From a virus, in IMG/VR virus record IMGVR_UViG_3300037427_004749, positions 1-23,438 of that record: a stretch of 23,438 nucleotides of DNA; one strand, written 5' to 3'. The notes beneath the pieces are model-generated. The model was not told the origin of the DNA. It worked only from the letters and a program-made list of their open reading frames with translations, and searched no databases. The position numbers were made by a program, and so were the translations under genes. This document shows, piece by piece, positions 327 to 20,204 of this stretch. Positions within the stretch are counted from its first letter, which is position 1, and every line of letters starts with the position of its first letter.

Positions 327-1649
327 TTGTCAACTAGAAAAGATCAATTCAACAAGAGAGCTAATGCCGTAGAGCAGGGATTTGAAGGAACAGATGTTCC
401 TACTGATATCGAAATCCCTTCGTGCACAATTGAAGATGTTGATAGATCTGTTTTCAATTTATTTGATAAGCAGCTCCCACTCCAGGCTGCATCCAAAGAT
501 GGATCAAAAAAAATTCCTGTTATTTTTGCGACCGGCGAAAGATTCGCTGTCTTAAGAAGAAAAGAGCCTCTAAGAGATAAGGGTGGCGCTCTTATATTGC
601 CGCTTGTCTCTATTATGAGGACAGGGGTAAGTCAAAAAGTCGATCATGGAATTGGTCCTGGGCAAGGCGGCCCAATAACTGTTACTAAAAGAATTGCAAA
701 AGAAAGCCAACTCTACCATCAGCTATTAAATAAGCACGGCCTAAAAAATGCCGACGGCTTAGCCCACGAATCACATAGCTCAAATACTAGAGGCGATGGA
801 ACAGAACCTGGTCAAATCGCGACCAGAGGCGAGAGTAACCCTAGAAGTCTCGACAGTAGGTCTGGAGAGCTTTTAAAGCCGTCATTGGGGGAAAACTTAT
901 ATGAAACTATTACCATCCCCCCTGTGAAATTCTATACAGCCACATATGATATAACTTTGTGGAGTCAGTATACACAAGAAATGAATGATATGCTTATGAC
1001 AATAATGAGTCTATATCAAAATAATCACCAAAGAACATTTAAGCTAGAAACAGATAAAGGGTATTGGTTTGTAGGATTCGTTGATAGCGAGTTGTCACCA
1101 GATAATAATGCTGATGATTTCACTGACGATGAACGTCTTATAAGGTACAGTTTTTCTATGAAAGTTGCTGGTTATGTAATTGCACCGGATTATCCAGGTG
1201 CGCCGGCATATTTAAGAAGGACAATATCGTCGCCAAAGATATCGTTTTCTACGGTTCAACCAAACGGCGCTTTTAAAGTAGCACCGGGAGGCTTACCGAA
1301 GAGGAATGACCCAGACATGCATTTACTTAAAGATCTATACAGTGAATTCGACCCTATGCCTAGCGTAGGTGTTGGGCAAGGAGGACAAGGACCGGCACTT
1401 GAGTCAGTTGGTTCTAAGATTCCAAATGAAGGGCCCGATGGTATGGGCGGCGGAAGTACCTCATTAGGAGGTTTTGAGAGCCAGAATTCTAATAATTCGG
1501 CAAAAATAATAACAACAACAATCGATCCATTCACAGGAGAAAAGGTGTCCAAAGTACTGCGAATCAAGAGCACGAACCAAAGAAAGGGCGAGACCGTTCT
1601 AAGGGAAGAGCAAATATTCGACTTTGGAGATTTATTCAAAGTGAAATGA
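327..1649 (+). CDS. Tail completion / sheath-stabiliser protein, T4 gp15-like
   Basis: 440 aa. The start is TTG at 327, chosen because AGGAG at 315-319 lies 7 bases before it. Two blocks resemble T4 gp15, the terminator that caps the tube and sheath. Residues about 40-115 contain a motif like KKIPVIFATGER followed by LRDKGGALILPLVSIMRTG, recalling the gp15 VPITYAS...ILPRI region. Residues about 195-290 contain the TATYDITLWSQYTQEMNDM segment, then ERLIRYSFSMKVAGYVIAPD, recalling ELSIFTRYEDDM and WSLTFEVNGWMYPP of gp15. T4 gp15 is about 270 aa. The extra length comes from a polar insertion at about residues 125-190 and a Gly/Ser/Asn-rich C-terminal tail from about 300 to 440. Its place directly before the sheath genes agrees with the role. 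The assignment rests on recalled motif similarity, not an alignment score. Any other tail-terminator family would be the main alternative. Confidence 0.65.
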   Translation: MSTRKDQFNKRANAVEQGFEGTDVPTDIEIPSCTIEDVDRSVFNLFDKQLPLQAASKDGSKKIPVIFATGERFAVLRRKEPLRDKGGALILPLVSIMRTGVSQKVDHGIGPGQGGPITVTKRIAKESQLYHQLLNKHGLKNADGLAHESHSSNTRGDGTEPGQIATRGESNPRSLDSRSGELLKPSLGENLYETITIPPVKFYTATYDITLWSQYTQEMNDMLMTIMSLYQNNHQRTFKLETDKGYWFVGFVDSELSPDNNADDFTDDERLIRYSFSMKVAGYVIAPDYPGAPAYLRRTISSPKISFSTVQPNGAFKVAPGGLPKRNDPDMHLLKDLYSEFDPMPSVGVGQGGQGPALESVGSKIPNEGPDGMGGGSTSLGGFESQNSNNSAKIITTTIDPFTGEKVSKVLRIKSTNQRKGETVLREEQIFDFGDLFKVK

Positions 1650-1696: not shown

Positions 1697-1725
1697 GATG
1701 ACACACGTCTAAGGAGATATGTTCA

Positions 1726-4700
1726 ATGGCTGAGCAGACTTTTCGATCACCAGGGTTTTTCGAGCAAGAGATAGACTTATCACAGCGTAGGGCTAGCCCA
1801 CTTGGAATACCAGCTGGTGTTATAGGTACAGCAGATAGAGGACCTGCATTTGTTCCCGTTACGGTTGGGACATTTGCAGATTTTGAAACACGATTTGGAA
1901 CTTTAAACTCTGATAGATTCGGCCCGTATGCCGTAAAAGAGTTTTTAAAGCATCGAAACGCGGTAACATTTATTCGGGTACTTGGTGCCGGGGCAAATGA
2001 TACAGGCACCGATATTTCAAACACAGAGACAAACGGCACAGTAAAAAATGCCGGATTTAAGGTTGTATCAACCGTCTTCGACGAGCTTGATAGTAAACCT
2101 TCGGGGCATAAAGGCGTCGTACAATTTCTCTGTGCAAGACACGTTTTAAGGAACGACGGTAATGGAACCGAGCTAAATGGATATCCTGTCTTTAGTGACA
2201 ATGATTCGTTTGCCGAGCGCCTTTCCGGCGGGGATAATAAGGTTAACTTGGTTCGAGGTGTGCTGTTTTCAGCAACAGGGTCCAAGTTCGAGGTCTTAGA
2301 CCACAATCAAACATACGCAAACCACGTTACAGCATTAAAATATACTGATGGTGCAATTTTTGGTAGCGGAAGTTCAGATGACGAAGGCTTCTTCAAGCTA
2401 GCATTGACATCATCATCAGGCGCTAGTTTTGCCAATGATGAATCACATGCTGGAGTGAGAATTTATACAGCTTCGCTTGATCCTTCAAGCAAAAATTATA
2501 TCGGAAAAATTCTTAATACAGATCCGGATAAATTCCAAGAAGAAGAGCACTTGCTCTACTTGGACTATGCAGTTGAGAATGAAATTGCTTATCCAGATGA
2601 TTTATCAACAATTCCTTCGATCGCATTGCTTTCAGGTTCAACTGAAACAACCAAGTCCGGTGGAGACACTTCCACTGCCTTCCGCGATCTTTACGGTAAT
2701 TACAATACAAGATATAAGGCACCCCAGACACCGAAAATAATTTCGCAACCGTATGGATCAGCAGAGTTTGATCTTTTCCGATTCGAATGCATATCTGATG
2801 GTGTTTCTGCAAATGAAGCATTCAAGATTTCTATTGCAAATATTAGAAAGTCTTCGGACCCACAATATGACTTTGGTACGTTTGATGTTCAGCTAAGAGC
2901 TTTCAACGATACTGATCAAAATCCGCAAATCTTGGAATACTATCCTGAGTGCTCTTTAGATCCAAACCATGAAAACTATGTTGCTAGAAAAATTGGCGAC
3001 AAAAGTGTCAAATACAACTTCGATGCTGATGCAGTTGACGAACGTCGTCTTGTTATTAAAGGAAAATATCCTAACAAGTCGCACAGAATTAGAGTTGTTA
3101 TGGAAGACGCCATTGAAAGAGACGAAGTGCCTCAAACAGCACTTCCCTTTGGATTCCGAGGCGTTCCGGTTCTTAAGACAACAGATACATTAGCAGATAA
3201 TCTCGGGACATCAATTAAAGATCGCTACGGAATTGCACACGGTATTGCCTCCGCAGTCGGAGGCGGTCGTCTTGGTGGCGTATTAAAGAATGGCGACGGC
3301 GTTGCTGGCGCTCTTTCCGGATCAATTGTTCCACCGCTTCCAATGAGATTTAAGGTTACAAGAGGTAAGCTTTCAACTACATCACACTGGGTAGGTCATA
3401 AGGGAGATAACGAAAGAGTTGACTCCAGACTATACTGGGGTGTTAAGTTTGAAAGACTACCAGTATCCTCCTCTGCAGATGCAGGATCCGTTTCAGAAGC
3501 AATTATGAATGCAAATATCTCGGCACTGCCTAACCCATTGGTTTCTGCATATGCAAGATTCCAAGGAATTGGCAAGCTGGATACATTGGTAACCGGATCT
3601 GCAGCAGATGATTTCAACAACAACAAGTTCTCATTGTCACGTGTTGCTCTTTATAATCAATTGCAAAGTAATCATATTACACACATTTCAGGAACTGCTA
3701 AAGATCACATGGTCGAAGCATCATACATCAGAAACGGTGTGCCGAACTCTGTTGACTATACTCTATCCGATCAGATAAGATCAGGAAGAATTACAATGGC
3801 AACATTGGTTCATTCTGCATCAACTGTCTTCAATCGATTCCAAGAGTACAATAAGTTCACTACAATGTTTTATGGTGGCTTTGATGGTGTCAACATCCTT
3901 GATAGAGACAATCGTCTCTTAAATGATAAGGCATCCTCAAGTGACTCAGGCGGTAAGGCTGGATCCACATTCAATGGTGGGCTTGGTCTTAAGGGAACTG
4001 ATGACGCAACCATGTCTGGCAAGGGTAAAGTAAATAATGTTGTTAACTCATTCCAAGTTGCAACTAGAATTATGACCGACCCAATGGCTTCAAACATGAA
4101 TATACTTGCAATCCCTGGTATGAGAGACACTTTTATTACAGATCACGCTCTGGGTGAAGTGAAGAACTACGGAATGGCAATTTATCTAATGGATCTCCTC
4201 AATTATGATGCAGACACCAATAGATTGTTTGATGACAGTACACAAAAGGTTGACGTAAGAGAAACTGCAGAACAGTTCGAAGGACGAGCAATTAACAATA
4301 ACTACTCAGCAACATATTTTCCTGATGTTTATCTTCATGATTCAGTTGCTAATAGGCCTGTTAAAATGCCGGCTTCAATCGCAGCCATCGGCGCATTAGG
4401 ATACAATGACAAAGTCGCGTATCCTTGGTTCGCCCCGGCTGGATTTAACCGCGGTGCACTTTCAGACGTATCTAATACAACATGTAGACTTAATTCTGCG
4501 GATAGAGATACCCTCTATGATGCACGTATTAATCCAATCGCGGTCTTCCCAACCGGTGGGTTCGTTATCTTCGGACAAAAAACCTTACAAATGGCGAAAT
4601 CAGCACTTGATAGAGTTAACGTTAGAAGAATGCTTCTAGAAGTTAAGCGTCTTGTGGTTGGTGTTGCTAACAGACTTCTCTTTGAGCAGAATAATGGTCA

Positions 4701-4923
4701 AACTAGAGCAAGATTTGTTAGTCAAGTAACACCACTTCTTGCTTTAGTCCAGGCTCAAGCAGGAATTGAAAAATTCACCGTTATCTGTGATGATACAAAT
4801 AACGGGGTGGAAGATCTAGAGACAAATAAAATGAACGGTAGAATTGTGGTTGTTCCGACACGAGCAGTTGAGTTCATTGCAATTGATTTCATAATCACAA
4901 ATAGTGGAGTATCGTTCGAGTAA
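1726..4923 (+). CDS. Tail sheath protein A (gp18 family, first of two tandem paralogues)
   Basis: 1065 aa; ATG at 1726 with AGGAG at 1712-1716 (spacing 9). The N-terminus (MAEQTFRSPGFFEQEIDLS, then GIPAGVIGTADRGPAFVPV at about residues 27-45) is the typical start of contractile-tail sheath proteins. The C-terminal domain has the conserved YPWFAPAG motif starting at residue 899, then DINPI-like ARINPI, FGQKTL and the RVNVRR helix, ending in the strand VEFIAIDFIITNSG. In known sheaths the N- and C-terminal arms exchange strands to form the contractile mesh, and both arms look intact here. Central markers are GTFDVQLRAF, YPNKSHRIRV, MFYGGFDGVNI and LAIPGMRD. T4 gp18 is 659 aa; the roughly 400 extra residues lie in the middle and would decorate the outer surface. 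The protein is clearly paralogous to the next gene (compare YGGFDGVNI with QGGFDGLNI, and LAIPGMRD with LAIPGMRH). The sheath call is nearly certain. Confidence 0.95.
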   Translation: MAEQTFRSPGFFEQEIDLSQRRASPLGIPAGVIGTADRGPAFVPVTVGTFADFETRFGTLNSDRFGPYAVKEFLKHRNAVTFIRVLGAGANDTGTDISNTETNGTVKNAGFKVVSTVFDELDSKPSGHKGVVQFLCARHVLRNDGNGTELNGYPVFSDNDSFAERLSGGDNKVNLVRGVLFSATGSKFEVLDHNQTYANHVTALKYTDGAIFGSGSSDDEGFFKLALTSSSGASFANDESHAGVRIYTASLDPSSKNYIGKILNTDPDKFQEEEHLLYLDYAVENEIAYPDDLSTIPSIALLSGSTETTKSGGDTSTAFRDLYGNYNTRYKAPQTPKIISQPYGSAEFDLFRFECISDGVSANEAFKISIANIRKSSDPQYDFGTFDVQLRAFNDTDQNPQILEYYPECSLDPNHENYVARKIGDKSVKYNFDADAVDERRLVIKGKYPNKSHRIRVVMEDAIERDEVPQTALPFGFRGVPVLKTTDTLADNLGTSIKDRYGIAHGIASAVGGGRLGGVLKNGDGVAGALSGSIVPPLPMRFKVTRGKLSTTSHWVGHKGDNERVDSRLYWGVKFERLPVSSSADAGSVSEAIMNANISALPNPLVSAYARFQGIGKLDTLVTGSAADDFNNNKFSLSRVALYNQLQSNHITHISGTAKDHMVEASYIRNGVPNSVDYTLSDQIRSGRITMATLVHSASTVFNRFQEYNKFTTMFYGGFDGVNILDRDNRLLNDKASSSDSGGKAGSTFNGGLGLKGTDDATMSGKGKVNNVVNSFQVATRIMTDPMASNMNILAIPGMRDTFITDHALGEVKNYGMAIYLMDLLNYDADTNRLFDDSTQKVDVRETAEQFEGRAINNNYSATYFPDVYLHDSVANRPVKMPASIAAIGALGYNDKVAYPWFAPAGFNRGALSDVSNTTCRLNSADRDTLYDARINPIAVFPTGGFVIFGQKTLQMAKSALDRVNVRRMLLEVKRLVVGVANRLLFEQNNGQTRARFVSQVTPLLALVQAQAGIEKFTVICDDTNNGVEDLETNKMNGRIVVVPTRAVEFIAIDFIITNSGVSFE

Positions 4924-4932
4924 TGAATACCT

Positions 4933-4939
4933 ATACTTT
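4933..4939 (+). promoter_or_regulatory. Variant ATACTTT motif upstream of second sheath gene
   Basis: In the 42-base gap between the two sheath genes, ATACTTT at 4933-4939 lies 33 bases before the ATG at 4966. It differs by one base from the ATACTTA found before other genes and lacks the TAAG dyad. It is the weakest member of the set. Confidence 0.15.
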
Positions 4940-4965
4940 GAATACGACAGTTAGGAGCGAAAAGC

Positions 4966-7900
4966 ATGGCTGAGCTAACTTTTAAAAGCCCAGGGGTTTC
5001 AACCAGAGAGATTGATCTAAGCGGTCCAACCGCAAGGTCACCTCAAGGCGTCCCCGCGGGTATCATTGGAACTGCCACAAAAGGAAGGGCATTTGTACCA
5101 ATCACAATCGCAACTTATCAAGATTTCGTCGCTGAGTTCGGCGGAACAGATGGGGAGCAATTTGGGCCACTCGCAATGTATGAGTGGATGCAAAATGCCC
5201 GAGCCGGAACCTATGTAAGGGTTCTTGGCGTCGGAGATGGCCTTAAGAAAGTTTCGGGTGGAAACAACTCGGGACGAATTAACAGAGCAGGATTTATTGT
5301 AGGATCGCAGCAAGTTCAGGAAACTGGGTTGCTAGCAGATAATAGATTTGCTGGAGCTGATACTACATCAGGTGGTGTCTTAGGAAGAACATATTTCCTG
5401 GGCGCTTTGATGAAAAGTGGATCTTCAACATCTAAAATCTTTTCTGATCCTGGAATTGCGATAGCCGGTGAATCCACCGACCGAGCGATGCCGATTATTC
5501 GTGGTGTCCTCATGGCTCCTTCCGGAGTTATGTTGGGACTTTCATCATCTTGGGCAGCCAACAATGCTCCAGCACAAAACCAGGCAGCTTCCGGTACATA
5601 CGGTGAGGGACCTGGCGCTGCTAGCGGAACAGGCGACGCAGGTGCACAGCACGGAACAGTTGATATTGCAAATGGAAGATCAAACTTTGTTCTTCTTCTA
5701 AACGGCCTCAAGCCGTCAGCGCAGTATACCAACATTATTACAGCATCCCTGGATCCGACATCTGCAGAATACTTTGCTAACGTCTTTAATACAGACCCAG
5801 CGAAGATTGAAGAGGCAGGTCACTATCTCTACGCAGATTGGGCTGTTTATCCTTCAATGGCAGTTGTTACAGCATCCGGTGTTCAAACCGATACGGGAGC
5901 AGGTAATCCACATCACAGTTCTAATGAATCAGAAGCAGCCTTCCTTCTCACAGGATCACAGGCTCGTGACACAGGTACATCATACGTACCGAACTATGAA
6001 AGATTCTCTGATAGATTCCAGACTGCATTCTCCCCATGGGTTGTTTCGCAAAAATTTGGTGGTTCCAACAAGAGCCTATTCAAGGTCCATGCACTAGATG
6101 ATGGTGGCCGGGCAAATGATTTATTCAAGCTCACCATTGAAAACATTGCTGCTTCCAACAATGAAAACAACAAGTACGGAACATTCGACTTGGTTGTAAG
6201 AAGCTTTTACGACAATGATGAAAATCCAGTCGTTCTAGAGGCATTCCGAGGTCTAAGCTTAAATGTTGATTCCGAAAGGTACATCTCTAGAGTAATCGGT
6301 GATATTCACATGTATTACGACTTTGATCAAGCTGTGGGATCACAAAAGCTTCGCATCGACGGTGTTTACCCTAATAAGTCTAGATACATTAGAGTTGAAG
6401 CCCATAGTGATATTGATAGAAAAGTTTTAGATGCATCTGCGATACCTTGTGGGTTCCGTGGGCATCACTTCCTGTTAACATCCGGATCTAGCGCAACATC
6501 AGGCGCTGCAGCTCTTTACGGTTGGCTAACCGGCTCACATGGCGTAACAAACGCAGAGCTACAAGCCGCTCAGGTACCTCCCGTACCATATCGTACAGAT
6601 CTTAATCAGGGCTCAGGACTCAAGAAGAACATGCAATCCGCATTAACATGGGGTGTGCAGTTTGAGACAATCAATAACTCTGCTGATCTTAATCAGAATA
6701 CTGTTGTTGATAAGTCAATTGCTTCATACACCAAGTACTTCCCAAGATTCCATGATAGCTGGAAAAACGTTCACATCGGTGATACAGCAGGTACTGAAGC
6801 AGACGGTGGTCTTGTGTTAGACTCTGATACATTCCAGAATGCACTATTCTCACTAGAGAACATTCAGGTTTCTACAGGATCAACAGATCGCCCGATATCA
6901 AATCGCTGGGGCGCTGCTGAGTACAGAAGAACCGGTGTCAAGGCATCTTCATTAACAGACTCAGATGGAACATCGTATCCATCAGATGTTACAAGATTCC
7001 TTGACGCGTCTAAGGACTTCTCTGATCTTCCTTCCAAGAAGTATCTCAAGTTTACATTCTTTATGCAGGGTGGATTCGACGGTCTTAACATCTTCGACAA
7101 AGAAGTATCTGAAATGTCAGATATTGCTGCACGAAATGAGTTCGGCCAAGCTACTCAAGGAAAAATCTCCGGACCTACAATTGCTTCCTTTAGAAAGGCA
7201 ATTGATGTGATGGAAGAGAAGTCAGACGTTGATATTCAACTCCTGGCAATTCCAGGCATGAGACACGAAGCTGTTACAGACTACGCAATGGACGCAGTTG
7301 AAGATAGATTTGATGCACTTTACATCATGGATATTGAAGAGAAAGATCAGAACAATACGTTCCTGACAGGCTCTTCCCTACAGATTCCAAGTGTTACATA
7401 TACAGTCAATAGATTTGAGGCACGAAACTTAGATTCCTCATTCGCAGCTGCATACTATCCAGATGTTGTAATGACAGATCCGAAAACACAGACGAACGTG
7501 CAGGTGCCGCCTTCAGTGGCAGTTATCGGCGCATTCGCCTTAAACGATACCTTGGCACATCCTTGGTATGCTCCTGCTGGTTTCTCAAGAGGGGCACTAA
7601 AAAGAACAATAGAGGCACAAGTTAAGCTTAATCGCAATAACTTGGATGCTCTATACGAGGCAGACATTAACCCAATTACTTCATTCCCACATTCCAGTGG
7701 TGTGGTGGTATTTGGTCAAAAGACGTTACAAGCAGCACAAAGCTCTCTTGATCGGGTCAATGTTAGAAGACTGCTTATTGAGATTCGACGTAGGGTCAAG
7801 AAGATTGCACTTTCGCTACTCTTCGAGCCCAACAGAGCAGACACACTTGCTAGATTCTCTGCAGCTGTTAATCCAGTCCTTCAACAAATTCAAGCCCAAC

Positions 7901-8061
7901 AAGGTCTTGATAGATTTAAGGTCCAGATCGACACTACAACCACCACACAGGCGGATGTAGAAAACAACACGATTAGAGGAAAGATCTTCCTGCAACCAAC
8001 CAGATCTCTAGAGTTCATCTCGCTTGATTTTGTTGTAACTAATCAAGGTGCTGAGATCTAA
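4966..8061 (+). CDS. Tail sheath protein B (gp18 family, second tandem paralogue)
   Basis: 1031 aa; ATG at 4966 with AGGAG at 4953-4957 (spacing 8). It has the same plan as the preceding sheath gene: N-terminal MAELTFKSPGVSTREIDLS, GVPAGIIGTATKGRAFVPI at about residues 28-46, QFGPLAMYEWM, central GTFDLVVRSFYD and YPNKSRYIRV, QGGFDGLNI, LAIPGMRH, and a C-terminal HPWYAPAGF starting at residue 865. It ends with ADINPI, VFGQKTLQ, RVNVRRLL and LEFISLDFVVTNQG. A Gly/Ala/Ser/Gln-rich insertion at about residues 200-230, lacking in paralogue A, looks like a surface loop. Both genes keep the N- and C-terminal linker arms, so either could polymerise; neither looks decayed. Only one tube gene follows, so two sheath types would share one tube. 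They could form a mixed sheath, form separate zones along the tail, or be used alternatively; nothing in the sequence decides between these. Confidence 0.95.
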   Translation: MAELTFKSPGVSTREIDLSGPTARSPQGVPAGIIGTATKGRAFVPITIATYQDFVAEFGGTDGEQFGPLAMYEWMQNARAGTYVRVLGVGDGLKKVSGGNNSGRINRAGFIVGSQQVQETGLLADNRFAGADTTSGGVLGRTYFLGALMKSGSSTSKIFSDPGIAIAGESTDRAMPIIRGVLMAPSGVMLGLSSSWAANNAPAQNQAASGTYGEGPGAASGTGDAGAQHGTVDIANGRSNFVLLLNGLKPSAQYTNIITASLDPTSAEYFANVFNTDPAKIEEAGHYLYADWAVYPSMAVVTASGVQTDTGAGNPHHSSNESEAAFLLTGSQARDTGTSYVPNYERFSDRFQTAFSPWVVSQKFGGSNKSLFKVHALDDGGRANDLFKLTIENIAASNNENNKYGTFDLVVRSFYDNDENPVVLEAFRGLSLNVDSERYISRVIGDIHMYYDFDQAVGSQKLRIDGVYPNKSRYIRVEAHSDIDRKVLDASAIPCGFRGHHFLLTSGSSATSGAAALYGWLTGSHGVTNAELQAAQVPPVPYRTDLNQGSGLKKNMQSALTWGVQFETINNSADLNQNTVVDKSIASYTKYFPRFHDSWKNVHIGDTAGTEADGGLVLDSDTFQNALFSLENIQVSTGSTDRPISNRWGAAEYRRTGVKASSLTDSDGTSYPSDVTRFLDASKDFSDLPSKKYLKFTFFMQGGFDGLNIFDKEVSEMSDIAARNEFGQATQGKISGPTIASFRKAIDVMEEKSDVDIQLLAIPGMRHEAVTDYAMDAVEDRFDALYIMDIEEKDQNNTFLTGSSLQIPSVTYTVNRFEARNLDSSFAAAYYPDVVMTDPKTQTNVQVPPSVAVIGAFALNDTLAHPWYAPAGFSRGALKRTIEAQVKLNRNNLDALYEADINPITSFPHSSGVVVFGQKTLQAAQSSLDRVNVRRLLIEIRRRVKKIALSLLFEPNRADTLARFSAAVNPVLQQIQAQQGLDRFKVQIDTTTTTQADVENNTIRGKIFLQPTRSLEFISLDFVVTNQGAEI

Positions 8062-8118: not shown

Positions 8119-8607
8119 ATGGCCGATACGCTTTCAGTAACAGAAATGCTCCCAAATAAGTTTGAGCCAAAACGCAAATTTAGATGGGTGTTCGCAATCG
8201 AGGGAATCGATGCTTTCCTTTGTAAGACGGCAGCCCGTCCTACAATTAACACCGCAGAGCAAGAAATTTCTTACATGAACTCAACACGTTATCTTGCAGG
8301 CAAGACCAAATTCGATGCAATTTCGGTCACTCTGCACGATCCAATCGCACCTTCAGCTGCACAGCAGGTGATGGAGTGGGTTCGAACACACTTCGAGTCT
8401 GTCTCCGGACGAGCTGGCTATGCTGATTTCTACAAAAGAGATTGTCAGCTCAAGCTGCTTGATCCTGTAGGAACCGTGGTTGAACTTTGGGACATGAAAG
8501 GATGCTTCTTGACATCAGCGGCGTTTGGTGACTTGGACTACGGTGCAGAAGATCCAACCGAAGTAGCACTAACTATTCGGTTTGATAACTGCGTACTCCA
8601 GTACTGA
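8119..8607 (+). CDS. Tail tube protein (gp19-like)
   Basis: 162 aa, essentially the length of T4 gp19 (163 aa). ATG at 8119 with AGGAG at 8108-8112 (spacing 6). It forms the inner tube through which DNA passes. Features of the family seen here are the early NKFEPKRKFRWVFAIEGIDAF strand pair (about residues 13-33), a FDAISVTLHDPIAP segment (about 73-86), the helix QQVMEWVRTHFESVSG, then LLDPVGTVVELWDMKGCFLTS and the closing strand VALTIRFDNCVLQY. This is the beta-sandwich plan shared by tube proteins of contractile phages and type VI secretion Hcp. Its position directly after the sheath genes matches the usual sheath-tube order. A strong terminator follows 29 bases after the stop, so sheath A, sheath B and tube probably end a transcription unit. 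I see no frameshift or truncation. Confidence 0.92.
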   Translation: MADTLSVTEMLPNKFEPKRKFRWVFAIEGIDAFLCKTAARPTINTAEQEISYMNSTRYLAGKTKFDAISVTLHDPIAPSAAQQVMEWVRTHFESVSGRAGYADFYKRDCQLKLLDPVGTVVELWDMKGCFLTSAAFGDLDYGAEDPTEVALTIRFDNCVLQY

Positions 8608-8636: not shown

Positions 8637-8666
8637 AAGGGGCCCTGAAATTCAGGGTCCCTTTTT
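8637..8666 (+). terminator. Rho-independent terminator after the tube gene
   Basis: A 10-bp stem pairs 8639-8648 (GGGGCCCTGA) with 8652-8661 (TCAGGGTCCC), with one G-U pair and a 3-base loop. It can be extended by AA/TT and is followed by five T at 8662-8666, then ATTT. This is a classical intrinsic terminator on the + strand. It separates the abundant sheath/tube transcripts from the chaperone/tape-measure genes. The rest of the gap (8667-8754) holds only the ribosome binding site of the next gene (AGGAG 8741-8745) and no promoter that I can identify with confidence. Confidence 0.9.
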
Positions 8667-8754: not shown

Positions 8755-9615
8755 ATGTCAGACCAAGGTAAGACTAGAGAGAGCAATAAGGTATTTACAG
8801 CAGATCAAGGAGCAAGATCTGCGATGCCTACTAGAAACGTAATGAAGGATGACTTCAACTTTGAAATTCCAGTAGAGTCCGTTCCTCTGCCTTCGTGTGG
8901 TATAACATATGCCACAGACTCAGCTTTGTCGCATCAAGAAACAGTTGATATCAAGGCGATGACAGCTAAAGAGGAAGATATTTTAACATCTAGATCTTTG
9001 ATTAAGAAGGGTACAGTTATTACACACCTTCTAAGGTCTTGCTTGGTTAATAAGAATGTTGATCCTGATGAAATGCTATCCGGTGATAGAAATGCTTTGA
9101 TGACTGCTGTTAGAATTACAGGTTACGGCTCAGACTATAATGTTGAAGTCGACTGTCCTGCATGTGGTGAAAGATCAAAGCAATCATTTGATCTTGCTGC
9201 TCTACCTATTAAGCGTCTTAATATTGCTCCTGTAGCAGACGGCGCAAATATGTTTGAATTTGAACTCCCACTAACCAAGAAAACTGTTAGATTCAAGTTT
9301 CTAACAGGTGCCGATGAGGCTGAGTTAGCTGTAATTCAAGAAAGAAAGAAGAAGCAGGGACTGTCTGCTGAAAATCTAGTAACTCAAAGACTTATGTTCT
9401 CTATTACTGCTATTGACGGTATTACAGACAAGTCTAAGATTTCAATGTTCTGTAGGCATATGCCAGCCCGAGATTCTTTGGCCCTTAGAAAACATATTGA
9501 TAAGCACGAGCCCGGTATCGATATGAAGTCCTGGATGGACTGCCCTTCGTGTCTCGAACACTCGGAGGTAAGGCTCCCAATCGGGGCCGCGTTTTTTTGG
9601 CCTGACACCCAGTGA
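8755..9615 (+). CDS. Baseplate hub / tape-measure assembly protein, T4 gp26-like, zinc-knuckle (short isoform)
   Basis: 286 aa; ATG at 8755 with AGGAG at 8741-8745. It resembles the T4-type baseplate protein family that contains gp26. Visible family signs are VPLPSCGITY at about residues 42-51 (an LPS-x-G-x-x-Y motif), a helical middle, two cysteine knuckles at C134/C137 (CPACG) and C263/C266 (CPSC), and the C-terminal AAFFWPD. The two CxxC pairs probably bind one zinc, with a domain of about 125 residues inserted between them. Family members of this kind lie upstream of the tape measure gene and act in hub assembly or as chaperones. The last codons contain a T7 run at 9592-9598 and overlap a second open frame, so this is probably the short product of a frameshift pair comparable to lambda gpG. 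No membrane segment or signal peptide is seen. Confidence 0.7.
   Translation: MSDQGKTRESNKVFTADQGARSAMPTRNVMKDDFNFEIPVESVPLPSCGITYATDSALSHQETVDIKAMTAKEEDILTSRSLIKKGTVITHLLRSCLVNKNVDPDEMLSGDRNALMTAVRITGYGSDYNVEVDCPACGERSKQSFDLAALPIKRLNIAPVADGANMFEFELPLTKKTVRFKFLTGADEAELAVIQERKKKQGLSAENLVTQRLMFSITAIDGITDKSKISMFCRHMPARDSLALRKHIDKHEPGIDMKSWMDCPSCLEHSEVRLPIGAAFFWPDTQ
9572..9598 (+). promoter_or_regulatory. Probable programmed +1/-2 ribosomal frameshift site (T7 run with 5' hairpin)
   Basis: The zero-frame codons are GCG TTT TTT TGG, so seven T lie at 9592-9598. Skipping one T (+1), or slipping back two, moves ribosomes into the frame that is open from 9572 to 9850. That frame's last upstream stop is TAA at 9569-9571 and the zero-frame stop is TGA at 9613-9615, so the slip site sits inside the only 44-base stretch where a shift could work. 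A hairpin of 6 bp (9572-9577 with 9583-9588, one G-U) ends 3 bases before the T run and may be a stimulator. A -1 shift would stop after two codons (TTG GCC TGA). The site is inferred from sequence and not proven. Confidence 0.65.
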
Positions 9616-10252: not shown

Positions 10253-13200
10253 ATGGCTGATGATTTAGGCAACCAGTTAGCAATACAACAACAGATAAAT
10301 AAAGTTTTGCAAGACCGTCAGGCGATGATGGCTGCAAACTCGAAGCAGATGTCGAATCAGCTTCAATTTGCTGTTGACTTGTGTAAGGCTATGGATTGCA
10401 AGGAACTCGAGGATATCGAGGACCGAATGAAAGGCATCCACGACGAAATGCAAAAGGCCGCCGATCAGTCTAAAGAGCTCGGTGAGAATATGACTGATGC
10501 AGCCAATCAGGGTAAAGCTGCAATAGACGCACAAAACGGCTCGCTAGAAAAGAACAATAAGCTTCTGACAGCTGGAAAAGGCGCTGCAATCGGTCTAGCT
10601 GGTGGACTTATTTCTGGGTTCAAGGGCGGCATCGCAATGACGAAGTCATTGGTCGGCGCTATCGGAAATATTATCGGCTCCCTAGGGAAGGTTGGAAAGT
10701 CTATTCTTTCCCTACCTTTTAAGCTAATGGGAGGCCTAATAGGTATGGCACAGGGCGGCGGTGGCGGCCCCAGTCCCATTAGAGTCGAATTAGAAAACAT
10801 TCGAAAAGAATTTGGATCTCTGGCTTCCAATGAAGGTAAGGCAGCTGCGTCTTCGATGAAACAGTTTAGAGACCAGGCCAGTGATCTAGCTGGGACAGGT
10901 GTCTCTTTAAGAAAAGTCTTTGGTGCAGGACCTGGCGGCGTTGCAAAAGCAATGGCGTACAACCTCGAGACAATGAAAGCCCTTGGTCCGGCCGTAAGTA
11001 GATTCTCTGAAGCATTTGCTAATAGTGCCGTCGAACTTTCTGTCTTTAGAAAAGGCCTTGGATTAGCCGGCGATGAAATGGCTGGAATGATGAAACATCT
11101 CGAGGCCATGGGCAAAGACCCTGTTGACGGCTTAAGAGAAGTTACGTCAATGGCATTTCAGCTTGGTGATCAATTTGGAGTAAGCGGAAAGCTTGTTGCT
11201 AAGTCTATGGCTGTAATGTCCAAGGATGTTGCTAACTTCGGAACTCTGACTGTTAAGCAGTTAGGTACTGCCTCTGTCTTTGCTAGAAAACTTGGAATAG
11301 AAATTAAAGATCTACAGGGTCTAGTAGGCAAATTTGATAATTTTGAGGATGCAGCTCAGGGTGCAGCAAAACTAAGTCAGGCATTTGGCATGAATGTAGA
11401 TGCCATGAAGATGATGAAAGAGAATGACCCTGCTGCACGCCTCGCGATGTTACAGAAATCGTTTAAGGCTACAGGAAAAGATGCATCTCAATTAAGTCGA
11501 CAAGAATTAAAGCTTCTCGCCTCCCAAACCGGACTAAGTGAAGAAGCTGCTCGAACTGCCTTTAGCAATAAAGGCATGAGCATGTCGTACGATGATATCC
11601 AGAAGGCGGGAGGCAAGGCGGAAAAGAAACAGCTAACTCAAGCCCAAGCCATGGATAAACTAGCTGACTCTATGGAAAGAGTCTTCGGCGGCGGCGGCGG
11701 CAAGAAGTTCAAGAGCTTCTTTGATGCATTTGTCCAGGGATTCGCGCGGGGTATCACAAGATCTAAAGAATTCCGAAAGATTATGAGAAACATTAGGAAG
11801 TCTCTTAAAGTTGTCTACAGAGGCGGCCAAGAGATTGGAAAGATGTTTGTTAAGATGTTCCCTGGCGTTCAAAAAATGATGAAAGGACTTGGTGACCTAT
11901 TCGATCCTAAGCGCTTTCGTGGACTAATGAAAGATGTCAAGGGTGTTTTTAAGCAATTTTTCAAAGATCTCAAGACAGATCCTGAAGCAGGTGTTCAGTC
12001 TTTCTTTAAAAATATAACAAAGGCATTCAAGAAATTCTTTAAAGCAGGCGGTACAGGTTCACAGCAGGTGATGGAGGGTGGTAAAGAGTTTTTAACAGCC
12101 TTCTGGCATATTTTTAAAGGTGTCTTAGCACTTGCAGTCGAAGGCTTAGCAAAGTTATTTACCCTGATTGCTGATAAGTTAGCGAATCCTCCCAAAGTAC
12201 CTACTGCACTTGGTAAGGCGTTTAGATCATTAGGGAAAGCTGCCGGAAAGCTATTAGGCGAACTATGGAAAGTTCTTAAGCCCCCACTAATTAGAGCATT
12301 TAAAGCGCTGTTTGAAGCAGCAAAGCCTGTCATTAAAAAGATGGGAATAGTATGGCTCAAGATGATGCTGACAAAGATGCTAATTATGGGTGTTGCATCA
12401 GCACTTAAAGGTGCAGTTGTTGGTAAGATCGGAATGATGCTAACAGGAATGTTCTCTAAGGTATTTAAGGCAAATCCGATACCTTCCCCAGACGACGCAC
12501 TTCCTCCTCCTCGACCTGGTCCGAGTAGAATCTCGACATTCTTGGAAAAGCTGGGTGCTATCAAAATAATGGATATCGCAAAAGCCTCGCTTAAGTTGAC
12601 ATTATTAGGCACGCTGTTCTTCCCAGCTCTTGTAGTTCTAGCTATAGTAATGAGAGTTGTTGTAGGAATTATAGGACCTAATGATGCTATAGCGGCAGCA
12701 GCTGCCATGATTGCTATTGGTGTTGCAATTGTTTCTATGAAATTTGCCATTGACGCCGGAAGTCAAATTTCGTTAGGCAAGATAGGCAAGGCAATTATGG
12801 GATTAGTCGGCGGCGCCGCTGTCTTAGTCTCTGGCGCCCTAGTATTTTCGCTAGCCCTTAGGTTTGTATCCGCATTCTTTAAAGGTATTGACTGGATCGG
12901 TGTTGGTATTGCCATGATCGGTATTGCCGTTGCTATGGGTGCTGTCGCAGCAATGATATGGGCAGCATCAGTAGTTCCGAAAGAAATGATTGTGAACGCA
13001 ACTATGAACATGGCTGTGGCATCACTATTTGTACTAGCTGTAGGATTGTTCGCGCTGGCAATGCAAGTAACAGCACCGCAAGTTATGGCTGTTCCATGGA
13101 TGGCTCTGCTACCAGTAATGCTACCGATGTTAGGTGTCATTGCACTGTTAATAGCTACAGCATTTATTTCGCAAGCCTTCGCCGCCGTTGGTATTCCAGG

Positions 13201-16006
13201 CTCTATCGGCTTAGGGCACGGTTTAGTCTTTGCGCTTGCTCTTACTGCGTTTTCTTTTGCACTAACATTAATGTCCGGTATTGTGGCTACGCTAGCACCT
13301 CAAATGCCTCTATTCGTAATGTTTGCTGTTTCAATGGCACTCATCGTGGGCGCGCTGGCATTGACTGCCTTAGCAGCAACATATATCATTCCTTTCGCCA
13401 TACCAGGCTCTCTAGGTCTTGCCGGGGCGGCAATATTTGTTCTTGCAGCAGCACATTTATTAGGTCCAGCTCTAAAATCTTTTTATGAAGAAGTAAATTC
13501 TTTAGACTTCAAAGCGTTGGCAGTAGCATTCCTCGCTCTAGCACTAATCATACCTGCTGTAGGCATTATGGCTTACGCAGCAATTCCAGCGGGTATTTTA
13601 GGCTTCGTCGGGGCAATGTTTGTCTCTGGTATAGCGTTCTTTGTCAGAAAGCTTGCTGATCCAGACGGACTCCTTGGAGACCTTACAACATTTTCCGAAA
13701 ATGCCATGAAGCTTCCTTGGAAAGCCATCGCGGCATCATTCGGTGCTTTAGCTCTAACATTTATTGCAGTAGCTGCTATGGCTTACATATCTATTCCTGC
13801 TGGTGTTGCAGGCTTTGTTGGATCATTTTTTCTCGGTGGCGTTGCCATGTTTATAAACGCGCTAAACGAACCAGGCGGTGTTATCGAAGGCTTGGCGACG
13901 ATGAGCAAAAAAGTCAACAAGATTGACACATCTGTTGGGAGTAAATTAGAGACATTAGCCCAGTTATTTAGAATTATGGCTATGGCAGCAGAGATGAGTT
14001 TTGATCTGATAATTTTCTCTTTGCCGATTATCGGTACTATCATGAACAAAGCTCTTGATAAGATACCAGACTTCGCTGAGAAAGTTATTTGTTATCTTGA
14101 GCCTTCTATTAAAATGTTAGACCAGATGGTGCTCACAGACCCAGGAGGCCTGGAACAAAAAGTTAATGCTATCGGGCAACTTATGGAAGTTGTCGGAAGC
14201 TTGGCCGGAGTTGCTACAGCATTGGCCGGCGTCGATACCGATTCTATGCCTGACGGATCCTCCACCGGCAGTACGCTAGGCGCTGCAGAAAGCTTCATGA
14301 CCGGTCTATTTGAAGGTGTTCAAGGGCTTATTGAGGTTCTACTTGGCACACCCCTCACACCCGCACAGATTCAATCGGCAAATGCAATGGGTAATGTTCT
14401 TGGCGCTATTGGCGACATGGTAAAGGCTGTTGCACCGAGTCCAGAATTAATGAAGTCTCTTCGAAAAGAATCGAGCAGTTTGGGTGGATTATTCTCGTCA
14501 TCAGAGGCAGACACAGAGGCAATTTCTGCACTAGCAGACTACATGGACAGCATGATGGGAGCTATTCGAGATCAAATTCCCAAAATCATGGGTTCTATCA
14601 TGGAGGCTGTTAACTCAATACCATCCACACCCGGTGTCGGGAAGAAGATTAAATTAGTTGCTGAGGCCTTCCAGGTTATTAGTGTCTTAGCTGGTGCAAT
14701 TTCTGATATCATGGATGTTGTACCAAAGCAAGATGATCCAAAGGCACAGGCAGAAATGCTAAAGTCTGTAATTGACGCAGTTAATGGCGCATTGTTCGGT
14801 GACGGCGGAAACATCGGAGCTTTGAAAAAGGCTTTCGACGGTCTTAGAGACGTAGTCAATGCCGTACCTGCCGGAAAATCCTTTGCAGCAAAAGTACCAA
14901 TTGTCGCTGAGGCATTTGGTATCCTGGGAAGCTTTGCATCTTCACTTGGTGCTGTTTCAAAATTAATGCCAAAAGAAGTAGAAGGATCAAAAGAGATGGG
15001 CCCACGCCTTAAAGCTCTTCTCGAGCCAGGCGGTTTAATGGATGGAATCGTATCAGCCCTATCAGGTGATAACGGAATGCTAATGAAGATCTTTGATACT
15101 CTCAAAGGCGCTATTGATCAGCTTCCTGGGGATGAAGGTGCTTTAAAGGCCATGGCTACTAAGGTAGAAATATTAGGAAGTATGTTCGGTGTGGTCGGAC
15201 AGTTTGCCAGTGCAATGGCCGATATCGGCGGTATAATACCTAATGTAGAAGGTCAGCCACCTCCGCCGCTTGACAGCGCTATTACTTTCTGTGAGCAAAT
15301 AGTATCCTCGTTAGTCGGACAGGGCGGCGATGGAATGCTTGGAAAGCTAGCTGAAGGCCTCCTTGAAATTGTTACACAAGAGAGTACTAAGGATCTGTAC
15401 AAATACAGGCGCCAGATTAAGGGACTTGGTGATGCATTTGAAGTTATCGGTGTATTTGCAAAGGCACTGGGAGATCTTGCAGGCCTCTCAACAGGCGAAG
15501 GCGCAGGATCAGCCGGTATAACATCGATGTTGTCTAACTTGGCTGGCGCATACGGCAAAGGAATGACAGGAAATAATGACATTGTTGATATCATTGGTGG
15601 CTTCGCGAATATTGGAAAAGAGGCACAAAAAGCTCGTCTAGATACTCGATCCATGAAGAAGGGCGCAGATTTCGCATGCGCACTTTCTGAAACTCTTACT
15701 GCCATGGCAAATATGCCAGCCCAAATTGAGAGTGATGCAACAAAACTAGCAGATCAAATGGCACAAATTAGCTCGATGTTCGCATCAGCCGGCGAAGGCA
15801 GTGACTTCGCCATTGCAGTTGCTGTCGCCCAAGGACTCACAGGTCAAAAAGAGCTCGTAATTACACACGAAAATATGAGTATTAATCTAACAGTCAATGT
15901 CGAAATCGAGCCTGGCAAGTTCGCGAGAGGAACCATTTCAGCTCTGGGCCAGGTTAACGGTCAACCAGGCTACAAGACATTCGCCCCAATGGGTGAAGGA
16001 GGATAG
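10253..16006 (+). CDS. Tail tape measure protein
   Basis: 1917 aa; ATG at 10253 with AAGG at 10241-10244. It is by far the longest gene here, lies just after the chaperone pair, and has the composition of tape measure proteins: long helices, rich in A, G, M, K and L. The N-terminal 100 residues are polar and coiled-coil-like. Hydrophobic Gly/Ala segments lie at about 110-166. Five-Gly runs occur at G168-172 and G479-483. Residues about 335-405 (KLGIEIKDLQGLVGKFDN, then FGMNVDAMKMMKENDPAARL) recall tape measures of large phages. A strongly hydrophobic block at about 780-1265 contains six imperfect repeats, and residues about 1453-1740 contain four more of another type. The last 50 residues look beta-rich (ENMSINLTVNVEIEPGKF). 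At the usual 1.5 A per residue an uncut protein would give a tail near 285 nm. No lysozyme or peptidase motif is recognised. The call is firm from size and context. Confidence 0.92.
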   Translation: MADDLGNQLAIQQQINKVLQDRQAMMAANSKQMSNQLQFAVDLCKAMDCKELEDIEDRMKGIHDEMQKAADQSKELGENMTDAANQGKAAIDAQNGSLEKNNKLLTAGKGAAIGLAGGLISGFKGGIAMTKSLVGAIGNIIGSLGKVGKSILSLPFKLMGGLIGMAQGGGGGPSPIRVELENIRKEFGSLASNEGKAAASSMKQFRDQASDLAGTGVSLRKVFGAGPGGVAKAMAYNLETMKALGPAVSRFSEAFANSAVELSVFRKGLGLAGDEMAGMMKHLEAMGKDPVDGLREVTSMAFQLGDQFGVSGKLVAKSMAVMSKDVANFGTLTVKQLGTASVFARKLGIEIKDLQGLVGKFDNFEDAAQGAAKLSQAFGMNVDAMKMMKENDPAARLAMLQKSFKATGKDASQLSRQELKLLASQTGLSEEAARTAFSNKGMSMSYDDIQKAGGKAEKKQLTQAQAMDKLADSMERVFGGGGGKKFKSFFDAFVQGFARGITRSKEFRKIMRNIRKSLKVVYRGGQEIGKMFVKMFPGVQKMMKGLGDLFDPKRFRGLMKDVKGVFKQFFKDLKTDPEAGVQSFFKNITKAFKKFFKAGGTGSQQVMEGGKEFLTAFWHIFKGVLALAVEGLAKLFTLIADKLANPPKVPTALGKAFRSLGKAAGKLLGELWKVLKPPLIRAFKALFEAAKPVIKKMGIVWLKMMLTKMLIMGVASALKGAVVGKIGMMLTGMFSKVFKANPIPSPDDALPPPRPGPSRISTFLEKLGAIKIMDIAKASLKLTLLGTLFFPALVVLAIVMRVVVGIIGPNDAIAAAAAMIAIGVAIVSMKFAIDAGSQISLGKIGKAIMGLVGGAAVLVSGALVFSLALRFVSAFFKGIDWIGVGIAMIGIAVAMGAVAAMIWAASVVPKEMIVNATMNMAVASLFVLAVGLFALAMQVTAPQVMAVPWMALLPVMLPMLGVIALLIATAFISQAFAAVGIPGSIGLGHGLVFALALTAFSFALTLMSGIVATLAPQMPLFVMFAVSMALIVGALALTALAATYIIPFAIPGSLGLAGAAIFVLAAAHLLGPALKSFYEEVNSLDFKALAVAFLALALIIPAVGIMAYAAIPAGILGFVGAMFVSGIAFFVRKLADPDGLLGDLTTFSENAMKLPWKAIAASFGALALTFIAVAAMAYISIPAGVAGFVGSFFLGGVAMFINALNEPGGVIEGLATMSKKVNKIDTSVGSKLETLAQLFRIMAMAAEMSFDLIIFSLPIIGTIMNKALDKIPDFAEKVICYLEPSIKMLDQMVLTDPGGLEQKVNAIGQLMEVVGSLAGVATALAGVDTDSMPDGSSTGSTLGAAESFMTGLFEGVQGLIEVLLGTPLTPAQIQSANAMGNVLGAIGDMVKAVAPSPELMKSLRKESSSLGGLFSSSEADTEAISALADYMDSMMGAIRDQIPKIMGSIMEAVNSIPSTPGVGKKIKLVAEAFQVISVLAGAISDIMDVVPKQDDPKAQAEMLKSVIDAVNGALFGDGGNIGALKKAFDGLRDVVNAVPAGKSFAAKVPIVAEAFGILGSFASSLGAVSKLMPKEVEGSKEMGPRLKALLEPGGLMDGIVSALSGDNGMLMKIFDTLKGAIDQLPGDEGALKAMATKVEILGSMFGVVGQFASAMADIGGIIPNVEGQPPPPLDSAITFCEQIVSSLVGQGGDGMLGKLAEGLLEIVTQESTKDLYKYRRQIKGLGDAFEVIGVFAKALGDLAGLSTGEGAGSAGITSMLSNLAGAYGKGMTGNNDIVDIIGGFANIGKEAQKARLDTRSMKKGADFACALSETLTAMANMPAQIESDATKLADQMAQISSMFASAGEGSDFAIAVAVAQGLTGQKELVITHENMSINLTVNVEIEPGKFARGTISALGQVNGQPGYKTFAPMGEGG
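12749..13930 (+). repeat. Six imperfect hydrophobic protein repeats (about 61-75 residues) in the tape measure gene
   Basis: Recurring units pair a long Ala/Met/Val-rich hydrophobic helix with an anchor such as AIPAGILGFVG or SIPAGVAGFVG, then another hydrophobic helix. The anchors fall at residues 833, 908, 981, 1050, 1111 and 1181, giving spacings of 75, 73, 69, 61 and 70. The two most alike are those at 1111 and 1181 (MAYAAIPAGILGFVG and MAYISIPAGVAGFVG). They are visible at protein level; I did not see long identical DNA. Confidence 0.65.
14609..15480 (+). repeat. Four imperfect helical protein repeats (about 82-86 residues) near the tape measure C-terminus
   Basis: Each unit starts with VNSIP, VNAVP, IDQLP or LEIVT at residues 1453, 1535, 1621 and 1704. 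It then carries a helix like KIKLVAEAFQVISVLAGAIS, KVPIVAEAFGILGSFASSLG, KVEILGSMFGVVGQFASAMA or QIKGLGDAFEVIGVFAKALG. The spacing (82, 86, 83) is very regular. Less similar units may precede them (for example around AIGQLMEVVGSLAGVATAL). Confidence 0.7.
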
Positions 16007-16008
16007 AC

Positions 16009-16344
16009 ATGAGCGACAAAGAAAACAAAGAGCCAACAGCTGAAGAAATAGCAGCAGCCAAAGGACAAGAGAGACAAGAAACCGCAGACGGAACATACAG
16101 TAGGACTTTTGAAGAGTTTGAAAGATCAAAGATAACCGACCCTAATTCTAAGTTTTTCTTCAAAATGCTTGAGTCAATGTCAACAGAGTATCAAGATGAA
16201 AAGTCCGAAGAAACTAGAAAATTATTCTCCACTGTAGACAGATTTAAAGAAGGCATTGAAAAGACAATGAAGTCACCCGAAGCCATGGATATATTTAAAA
16301 AAGAGCTAGAGAGAAGAATAGGTAAAATGAGGAATGAGAAATAA
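16009..16344 (+). CDS. Small charged protein of unknown function downstream of the tape measure gene
   Basis: 111 aa; ATG at 16009, 2 bases after the tape measure stop, with AAGGAGG at 15996-16002 inside the end of that gene. I do not recognise it. It is very hydrophilic, rich in E and K, has no cysteine, and shows two likely helical stretches: residues about 33-70 (RTFEEFERSKITDPNSKFFF and following) and about 70-111 (SEETRKLFSTVDRFKEGIEK, ending ERRIGKMRNEK). The stop codon overlaps the ATG of the next gene (TAATG at 16342-16346), so expression is coupled to the next gene. Its position next to the tape measure gene and its charge suggest an assembly chaperone or a helical tail-interior protein, but that is inference. 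Confidence 0.8.
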   Translation: MSDKENKEPTAEEIAAAKGQERQETADGTYSRTFEEFERSKITDPNSKFFFKMLESMSTEYQDEKSEETRKLFSTVDRFKEGIEKTMKSPEAMDIFKKELERRIGKMRNEK

Positions 16345-19910: not shown

Positions 19911-20204
19911 ATGGCATTAGGTAGATACGATAACTTAAGAAAAATCAAAAGCGGAAAGATGTACTCTTCCGCAGCAGCGCATGTCAATATTTACAAAGGC
20001 TGTATTTCCGGAAATATTTCATATACCACACGGACTTTGATAGAGGGAGAAAGACTCGACATTCTAGCCGGTAAATACTATGGAAATGGTAATTTGTGGT
20101 GGATTATTGCAGCAGCCTCGGGCATTGGCTGGGGATTGCAAGCACCCCCTGGAACAAACTTAAGGATACCTAATGATATTACACAAATTTCGGCATATGT
20201 CTAA
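19911..20204 (+). CDS. Baseplate LysM-domain protein (P2 gpX / T4 gp53-like)
   Basis: 97 aa; ATG at 19911 with AGGAG at 19900-19904 (spacing 6). Residues about 45-89 form a LysM-like fold signature: EGERLDILAGKYYGNGNLWW, then IIAAASGIGWG, then PPGTNLRIPND, where the final PGT-x-L-x-IP is the usual end of phage baseplate LysM domains. In P2 gpX and T4 gp53 such domains clamp the tail hub and wedge rather than bind cell wall. It is short and has no catalytic domain. The stop overlaps the next ATG (TAATG at 20202-20206). The hub gene has no ribosome binding site of its own, so ribosomes finishing this gene probably start the hub gene. The call is firm for the domain and good for the baseplate role. 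Confidence 0.85.
   Translation: MALGRYDNLRKIKSGKMYSSAAAHVNIYKGCISGNISYTTRTLIEGERLDILAGKYYGNGNLWWIIAAASGIGWGLQAPPGTNLRIPNDITQISAYV

Follow-up and report, generated by a model that had tools for sequence, protein, structure and literature searches.

We found that a 23,438-nucleotide virus record from IMG/VR (IMGVR_UViG_3300037427_004749, a single metagenome fragment; the whole stretch is called the window in the following) encodes two tail sheath proteins, A and B, in tandem upstream of a single tail tube gene. The tandem A-B pair occurs at every testable locus of our sample and is fixed in a large uncultured phage clade. The contractile sheath is the classical example of a structure in which copies of a single protein repeat along a tube. 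From the genes alone, we consider it probable that A and B are two bulk subunits of one contractile sheath, which is built on a tube made of a single protein.

The tandem sheath pair and its relatives

Sheath A (1065 amino acids (aa), positions 1726..4923) and sheath B (1031 aa, positions 4966..8061) are intact open reading frames (ORFs) on the plus strand. Both match the PHROG tail-sheath profile phrog_23, with E values of 6e-55 for A and 6.1e-63 for B in a profile search. The Pfam domain PF17482 is found in B with 34.6 bits, which is above the cut-off of 26.9, and in A with 26.2 bits, which is slightly under it; the Pfam sheath domain PF04984 is under its cut-off in both. The pairwise alignment covers residues 1-1029 of B with 38% identity and 500 bits (375 identical residues among 977 aligned). 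As A and B are collinear over their full length, neither of them is a split gene.

To predict the structures with AlphaFold, we used alignments of relatives with 88 rows for A and 51 rows for B, each of which contains mostly proteins of its own type and some of the other. The models have a predicted local distance difference test (pLDDT) score of 87.7 for A and 84.7 for B. When compared to the T4-type sheath protein of a solved tail (9f4a_SA), the model of A gives a Z score of 31.7 (root mean square deviation (rmsd) 3.5, 444 aligned residues) and the model of B a Z score of 33.4 (rmsd 3.9, 439 aligned residues); the Z scores against the sheath protein of T4 (3j2m_U) are 27.4 for A and 28.1 for B. 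The first 15-22 residues have a low confidence in both models, as expected for a free arm. According to the models, A and B are thus each a whole T4-type sheath protein.

In A, we recognise an N-terminal linker arm by its conservation and low pLDDT (aa 1-25, positions 1726..1800), which includes the A-specific residue F11. The outer domains (aa 96-700, 2011..3825) lie between the N-terminal part of gp18 domain III (aa 30-85, from Pfam) and the C-terminal core, and the C-terminal sheath domain matched by PF17482 spans aa 959-1057 (4600..4896). The corresponding domain of B (aa 926-1025, 7741..8040) contains the B-specific residues L961, T992 and T993, and an outer-domain stretch of B (aa 121-325, 5326..5940) is the main site of the large inserts that are found in relatives. 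As far as conservation can tell, the N- and C-terminal linker-arm stretches are among the best-conserved parts of both families.

The sequence-only reading of the window had described A and B as two intact, oversized paralogues that both keep their linker arms, do not result from a split gene and are served by one tube gene. The open frames and their PHROG matches, the end-to-end alignment, the high conservation of both protein ends and the single tube gene bear this description out, apart from its wording on size. The term oversized is apt in comparison to T4, which has one sheath protein of 659 aa. It does not single out A and B in general, since a sister family (described below) has a single sheath of 850-977 aa and the excerpt of PMC9230969 already lists sheaths of 955-1283 aa.

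To estimate how widespread the pair is, relatives were collected in scans with B, A, the tube protein and three divergent members; these relatives are a sample of the clade among the matches listed. In the first set, B is located directly after A for 85 of 85 A genes that have at least 300 bases behind them. In the final set, A is followed by B in all 145 distinct loci; counted apart from these are the sister family (L208-L239), named phages (L003-L006 and L322), contigs from bins or single cells (L111-L114) and L001-L002, which correspond to the window. To avoid a circular finding, the tube protein was also used as the only bait. This resulted in 80 loci, where 25 contigs end too early and 55 are testable, and the A-B pair is present in 55/55 (53 detected by a script, plus L125 and L152, where A is truncated by the contig edge to 84 and 92 aa, below the length cut).

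Contigs of the clade reach 241,978, 235,681 and 201,585 bases, and some members appear to be jumbo phages based on these sizes. Among 2580 matching phage records, none covers 80% of A, and none covers 80% of B; the isolate with the best match, Microcystis phage Mel-JY01, encodes a single sheath of 812 aa. An assignment of hosts from bin names was dropped, with three near relatives in bins named Flavobacteriales, Halobacteriovorax and Methylococcaceae, and we claim no host. Four loci have a B that is broken into two ORFs (L019:414-3812, L072:9170-12171, L132:3420-6482 and L177:2604-6764). For L072, sequencing errors are likely, as the contig L071 has an identical A and an intact B.

The gene arrangement strongly suggests that A, B and the tube are made from one message. 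The tube gene (162 aa, 8119..8607, plus strand; phrog_4542, E value 4.3e-33) is the only one that the profile search found in the window, and it is followed by a hairpin and a T run that resemble an intrinsic terminator (8637..8663, plus strand) at the end of the A-B-tube unit. Among the loci compared here, from which overlapping loci were only partly removed, such a site is present after the tube in 85/106 loci compared to 1/106 shuffled sequences, in 0/125 gaps between A and B and in 2/112 gaps between B and the tube.

Shine-Dalgarno sequences are found upstream of A (AAGGAG, 1711..1716, pairing energy -9.1 kcal/mol) and, within the gap of 42 bases between A and B, upstream of B (AGGAG, 4953..4957, -6.5 kcal/mol), both on the plus strand. 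The median energies of the ribosome sites across loci are -8.5 kcal/mol for A, -7.3 for the tube, -6.5 for B, -6.3 for the gp15-like gene upstream of A and -6.05 for the baseplate hub gene downstream of the tube. In paired tests, the site of B is weaker than those of A and the tube and stronger than those of the gp15-like and hub genes. The terminator pattern together with the ribosome sites argues for high-level co-expression and against a switch between A and B, whereas the strengths of the ribosome sites tell little about the exact ratio of A to B.

Next to the clade of the window, we detected the sister family L208-L239, in which the gene order is the same and the difference is one sheath gene. 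Its single sheaths score about equally against A and against B, and a second sheath was found in 0/19 testable loci (32 loci in total). The large single sheath of this sister family implies that the ancestral sheath was large before the duplication, which is placed on the stem of the clade of the window. When 146 rows are placed in a tree, A (79 proteins) and B (62 proteins) each occupy one side of a branch that has a support of 100. This agrees with the old duplication proposed in the sequence-only reading, with one exception, L202 (517-6452). Here, the two copies both emerge at the base of A, and a tree constrained to hold B together is 15.5 log units worse (approximately unbiased test, p 0.005). 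Thus, we rejected a general separation of A from B in the tree. In the C-terminal domain, both copies of L202 are mostly B-like, whereas the first copy is mostly A-like forward of it; this may reflect a gene conversion between the tandem sheath genes.

Additional sheath genes occur in a few genomes. L049 contains A, B, B' and the tube, followed by another B-type gene that is cut by the contig end (17041-19518), and in L152 a B-type gene, also cut by the contig end, is located directly behind the tube (4262-6997). These B-type genes downstream of the tube have an altered N-terminal arm. The 484-kilobase (kb) phage LR756508.1 (L003) encodes two sheaths of exactly 824 aa each (10464-12938 and 13953-16427). 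They fall outside both A and B in the tree, and this phage is thus a further multi-sheath lineage.

Inserts and diagnostic residues

We defined an insert as at least 40 aa relative to A or B of the window, so that the B of the window is the uninserted reference by definition. Among 96 distinct complete pairs, inserts are present in 26 B proteins and in 2 A proteins. When these pairs are grouped into 77 clusters, inserts are found in B in 22 clusters and in A in 2, with 20 clusters where only B and none where only A has an insert (sign test 1.9e-6; independence of the clusters is only partial). The insert state changes at least 15 times on a tree of the 77 A proteins. Intact B proteins range from 985 to 1794 aa and intact A proteins from 1008 to 1302 aa. 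The statement that inserts only ever occur in B was rejected, since the set found with the tube contains A proteins of 1225 and 1302 aa (L164 and L165).

The insert sites in B are residues 121-138, 149-176, approximately 193-225, 299-324 and 657-676. All of them fall in the outer domains, which are bounded by the N-terminal part of domain III on one side and the C-terminal core on the other and are seldom enlarged in A (the 2/77 clusters above). As judged from the sequences, large surface variability thus sits in B and hardly in A. The sequence-only reading had also raised the possibility of alternate host-exposed surfaces. The part on variable surfaces is retained, with B (22/77) and hardly A (2/77) as the variable partner, whereas a switch between A and B is disfavoured by the apparent shared transcription unit.

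Many of the inserts contain a module of about 120 aa, which occurs at differing sites (near residues 170 and 215 of B) and also in tandem. A hidden Markov model (HMM) grown from six copies of this module detects 25 B ORFs and no other ORF of 6579. The module is present in 16 of 93 distinct complete B proteins and in 0/94 A proteins, and the B of the window has no match to it. There was no significant match of the module in Pfam, PHROGs or the PDB sequences, and a tblastn search of phage records with one module, a query of low complexity, gave no match.

We then compared conserved residues between the two families. A position was considered diagnostic if A and B each have one residue fixed to at least 85% and the two residues differ, which applies to 27 aligned positions across the clade. 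Among positions conserved in both families, the share of diagnostic positions is 3/11 in the first outer stretch, 8/37 in the C-terminal domain and 7/40 in the C-terminal part of domain III, and it is 1/12 in the N-terminal arm and 0/24 in the N-terminal part of domain III. When compared to the sister family, the ancestral residue is kept in B at 8 of the 27 positions, in A at 7 and in neither at 12. For instance, an invariant V of the N-terminal arm is replaced in A (F11), and an invariant R and the pair N-N of the C-terminal domain are replaced in B (L961, T992 and T993). Since each protein has lost different ancestral conserved residues, A and B may no longer be interchangeable. A derived arm in A together with a derived acceptor in B is the trace expected if the arm of A contacts B, although the numbers are small (15 positions) and L202 is an exception. 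With 96 distinct complete pairs, which form 77 clusters, the set is too small to analyse coevolution between residues of A and residues of B.

Proposed arrangement of A and B in the tail

The data show that a large sheath gene of the T4 type underwent a tandem duplication at the stem of the clade, after which both copies stayed intact and adjacent in all loci examined. We propose that A, B and the tube are made together from one message. A and B would use their N- and C-terminal arms to join a common lattice, polymerise on the tube and contract as one. A would be a plain, length-constrained subunit. B would be a subunit with optional extra modules on its outer domains, and the tail would be decorated at only some positions. 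These modules might attach to the surface of the host or act as a cement of the tail; in general, extra sheath domains have been proposed to serve adhesion or stability (excerpt of PMC9230969). The finding of inserts almost only in B suggests that one copy may retain the motor and leave the other free to vary its outer face.

A more specific and doubtful version of this proposal is an obligate ordered heteropolymer. Here, the derived arm of A (F11) would fit the derived acceptor of B (L961, T992 and T993), the ancestral arm of B would fit the ancestral acceptor of A, and A and B would alternate. If this were true, surface modules would be present only at B positions, a fixed half of the sites, and lineages would vary by swapping the inserts of B. 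Several observations weigh against A and B as the two bulk subunits of one sheath. The weaker ribosome site of B would also suit a minor B. At 11 of the 12 doubly conserved positions in the N-terminal arm, A and B share the residue, which would also allow homotypic contacts. Of the 8 diagnostic positions in the C-terminal domain, the two copies of L202 are B-like at 6 and 7, and the divided retention is thus not universal. Lastly, the sheath copies of Afp/PVC systems are placed by position and do not alternate.

Between the mixed and the zoned sheath raised in the sequence-only reading, the sequences tend towards a mixed bulk sheath, given the apparent shared transcription, the equal retention of both genes and the conserved differences divided between them. 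In a zoned sheath, which we consider unlikely, one paralogue would form nearly all rings and the other the first or last ring or rings, as a starter or terminator near the baseplate or neck. The weaker ribosome site of B compared to A and the tube would fit such a role, and an end ring would be a suitable place for the extra B-type copies with altered N-terminal arms that L049 and L152 have behind the tube. Furthermore, several sheath proteins are present in one particle of the Photorhabdus virulence cassettes (PVC) and the antifeeding prophage (AFP), according to the excerpt of PMC8894135. However, B keeps both arms and its full length, its core is about as conserved as that of A, its ribosome site is still stronger than those of the gp15-like and hub genes, and repeated large surface inserts would be odd for a single end ring.

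It is quite improbable that A and B are redundant or alternative sheaths, each homopolymeric, where particles carry one or the other or where the copies only raise the dosage. Both proteins are complete with their own arms, and L049 has further B-type copies, as would be expected in that case. Yet redundancy should lose one copy somewhere, whereas both are kept in 145/145 loci; in addition, the genes form one apparent transcription unit with no internal terminator, and 27 positions are fixed for different residues across the clade. Since the sequence comes from one metagenome fragment, an artefact of assembly or gene calling, such as a duplicated or chimeric stretch, could be suspected as well. 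This is practically out of the question, as it is refuted by the recurrence of the pair in 145 distinct loci, and A and B of the window are only 38% identical. If A and B are two bulk subunits of one sheath, as we propose, a clade with one plain and one repeatedly decorated paralogue would make it possible to study in nature why a homopolymer turns into a heteropolymer. It would also test whether the changing outer surface of a phage includes the tail shaft in addition to the fibres.

Known sheath systems and the surrounding tail module

In 2018, Kurochkina et al. reportedly described a two-component tail sheath of the Pseudomonas phage PaBG, which is absent from the sequence-only reading. The excerpt of PMC7412058 gives two sheath paralogues for PaBG that are 38% identical and result from a duplication within one phage group, and it lists both in the virion proteome table. 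PaBG thus resembles the window in having two full-length sheath paralogues in one genome, with 38% identity in both cases. However, the sheaths of PaBG have 528 and 541 aa and are approximately 15 kb apart, compared to 1065 and 1031 aa and 42 bases in the window, and the first PaBG sheath adjoins two annotated tube genes instead of one. When comparing the proteins directly, PaBG gp076 matches the window sheaths (94 bits) and gp093 has no match at 1e-5. As the PaBG pair is dated within its own group in that excerpt, the two duplications look independent.

The excerpt of PMC9230969 also remarks that some genomes encode two sheath copies, of which one was used for analysis. Two sheath proteins per phage are thus already known from these two sources. 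Our literature searches for two or multiple tail sheath proteins retrieved PaBG and this remark, and no tandem pair of this kind; nor did they show the long tandem form with one tube, its fixation across a clade, a decoration of a single copy or the module.

The likeness to gp18 of T4 includes the fold, the arms, the C-terminal domain and the position of the sheath between a gp15-like gene and the tube gene, whereas the window has two sheaths with approximately 400 more residues, mostly in the outer domains. The type VI secretion system divides one sheath unit between two chains, TssB and TssC. It is thus also a two-protein sheath, but A and B are each a whole subunit according to the end-to-end alignment and the models. 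The Afp/PVC systems similarly have more than one sheath paralogue per machine; in contrast, their sheaths are short and they are not phages.

Lastly, we describe the genes around the sheath pair. The gp15-like gene, of the tail terminator or sheath stabiliser type (440 aa, 327..1649, plus strand), matches PF16724 with an E value of 0.0006 and 19.5 bits, under the cut-off of 25, and a homologue is located immediately upstream of sheath A in the relatives. The tube protein has 80-92% identity among the 80 relatives listed, compared to 49-68% for sheath A among its respective matches listed. Downstream of the terminator-like site, the baseplate hub gene (286 aa, 8755..9615, plus strand; PF12322 with 57.1 bits, phrog_150) is presumably of the T4 gp28 type. 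It is followed by a 1917-aa protein in the place of the tape measure (10253-16006), so named from size and position only, and by further large genes; a baseplate-wedge-like gene is located at 19911-20204.

In several relatives, the gap between B and the tube contains a gene of 458-570 aa on the opposite strand, which by eye resembles an endonuclease of the homing type (minus strand; L008:8625-10274, L035:13622-15334, L018:6533-7909 and L099:6834-8486); the window has none. Between sheath A and sheath B, L088 contains a gene of 243 aa (L088:13070-13801) that by eye looks like a GIY-YIG homing endonuclease, and this A-B gap is the sole one of such size in the first locus set.

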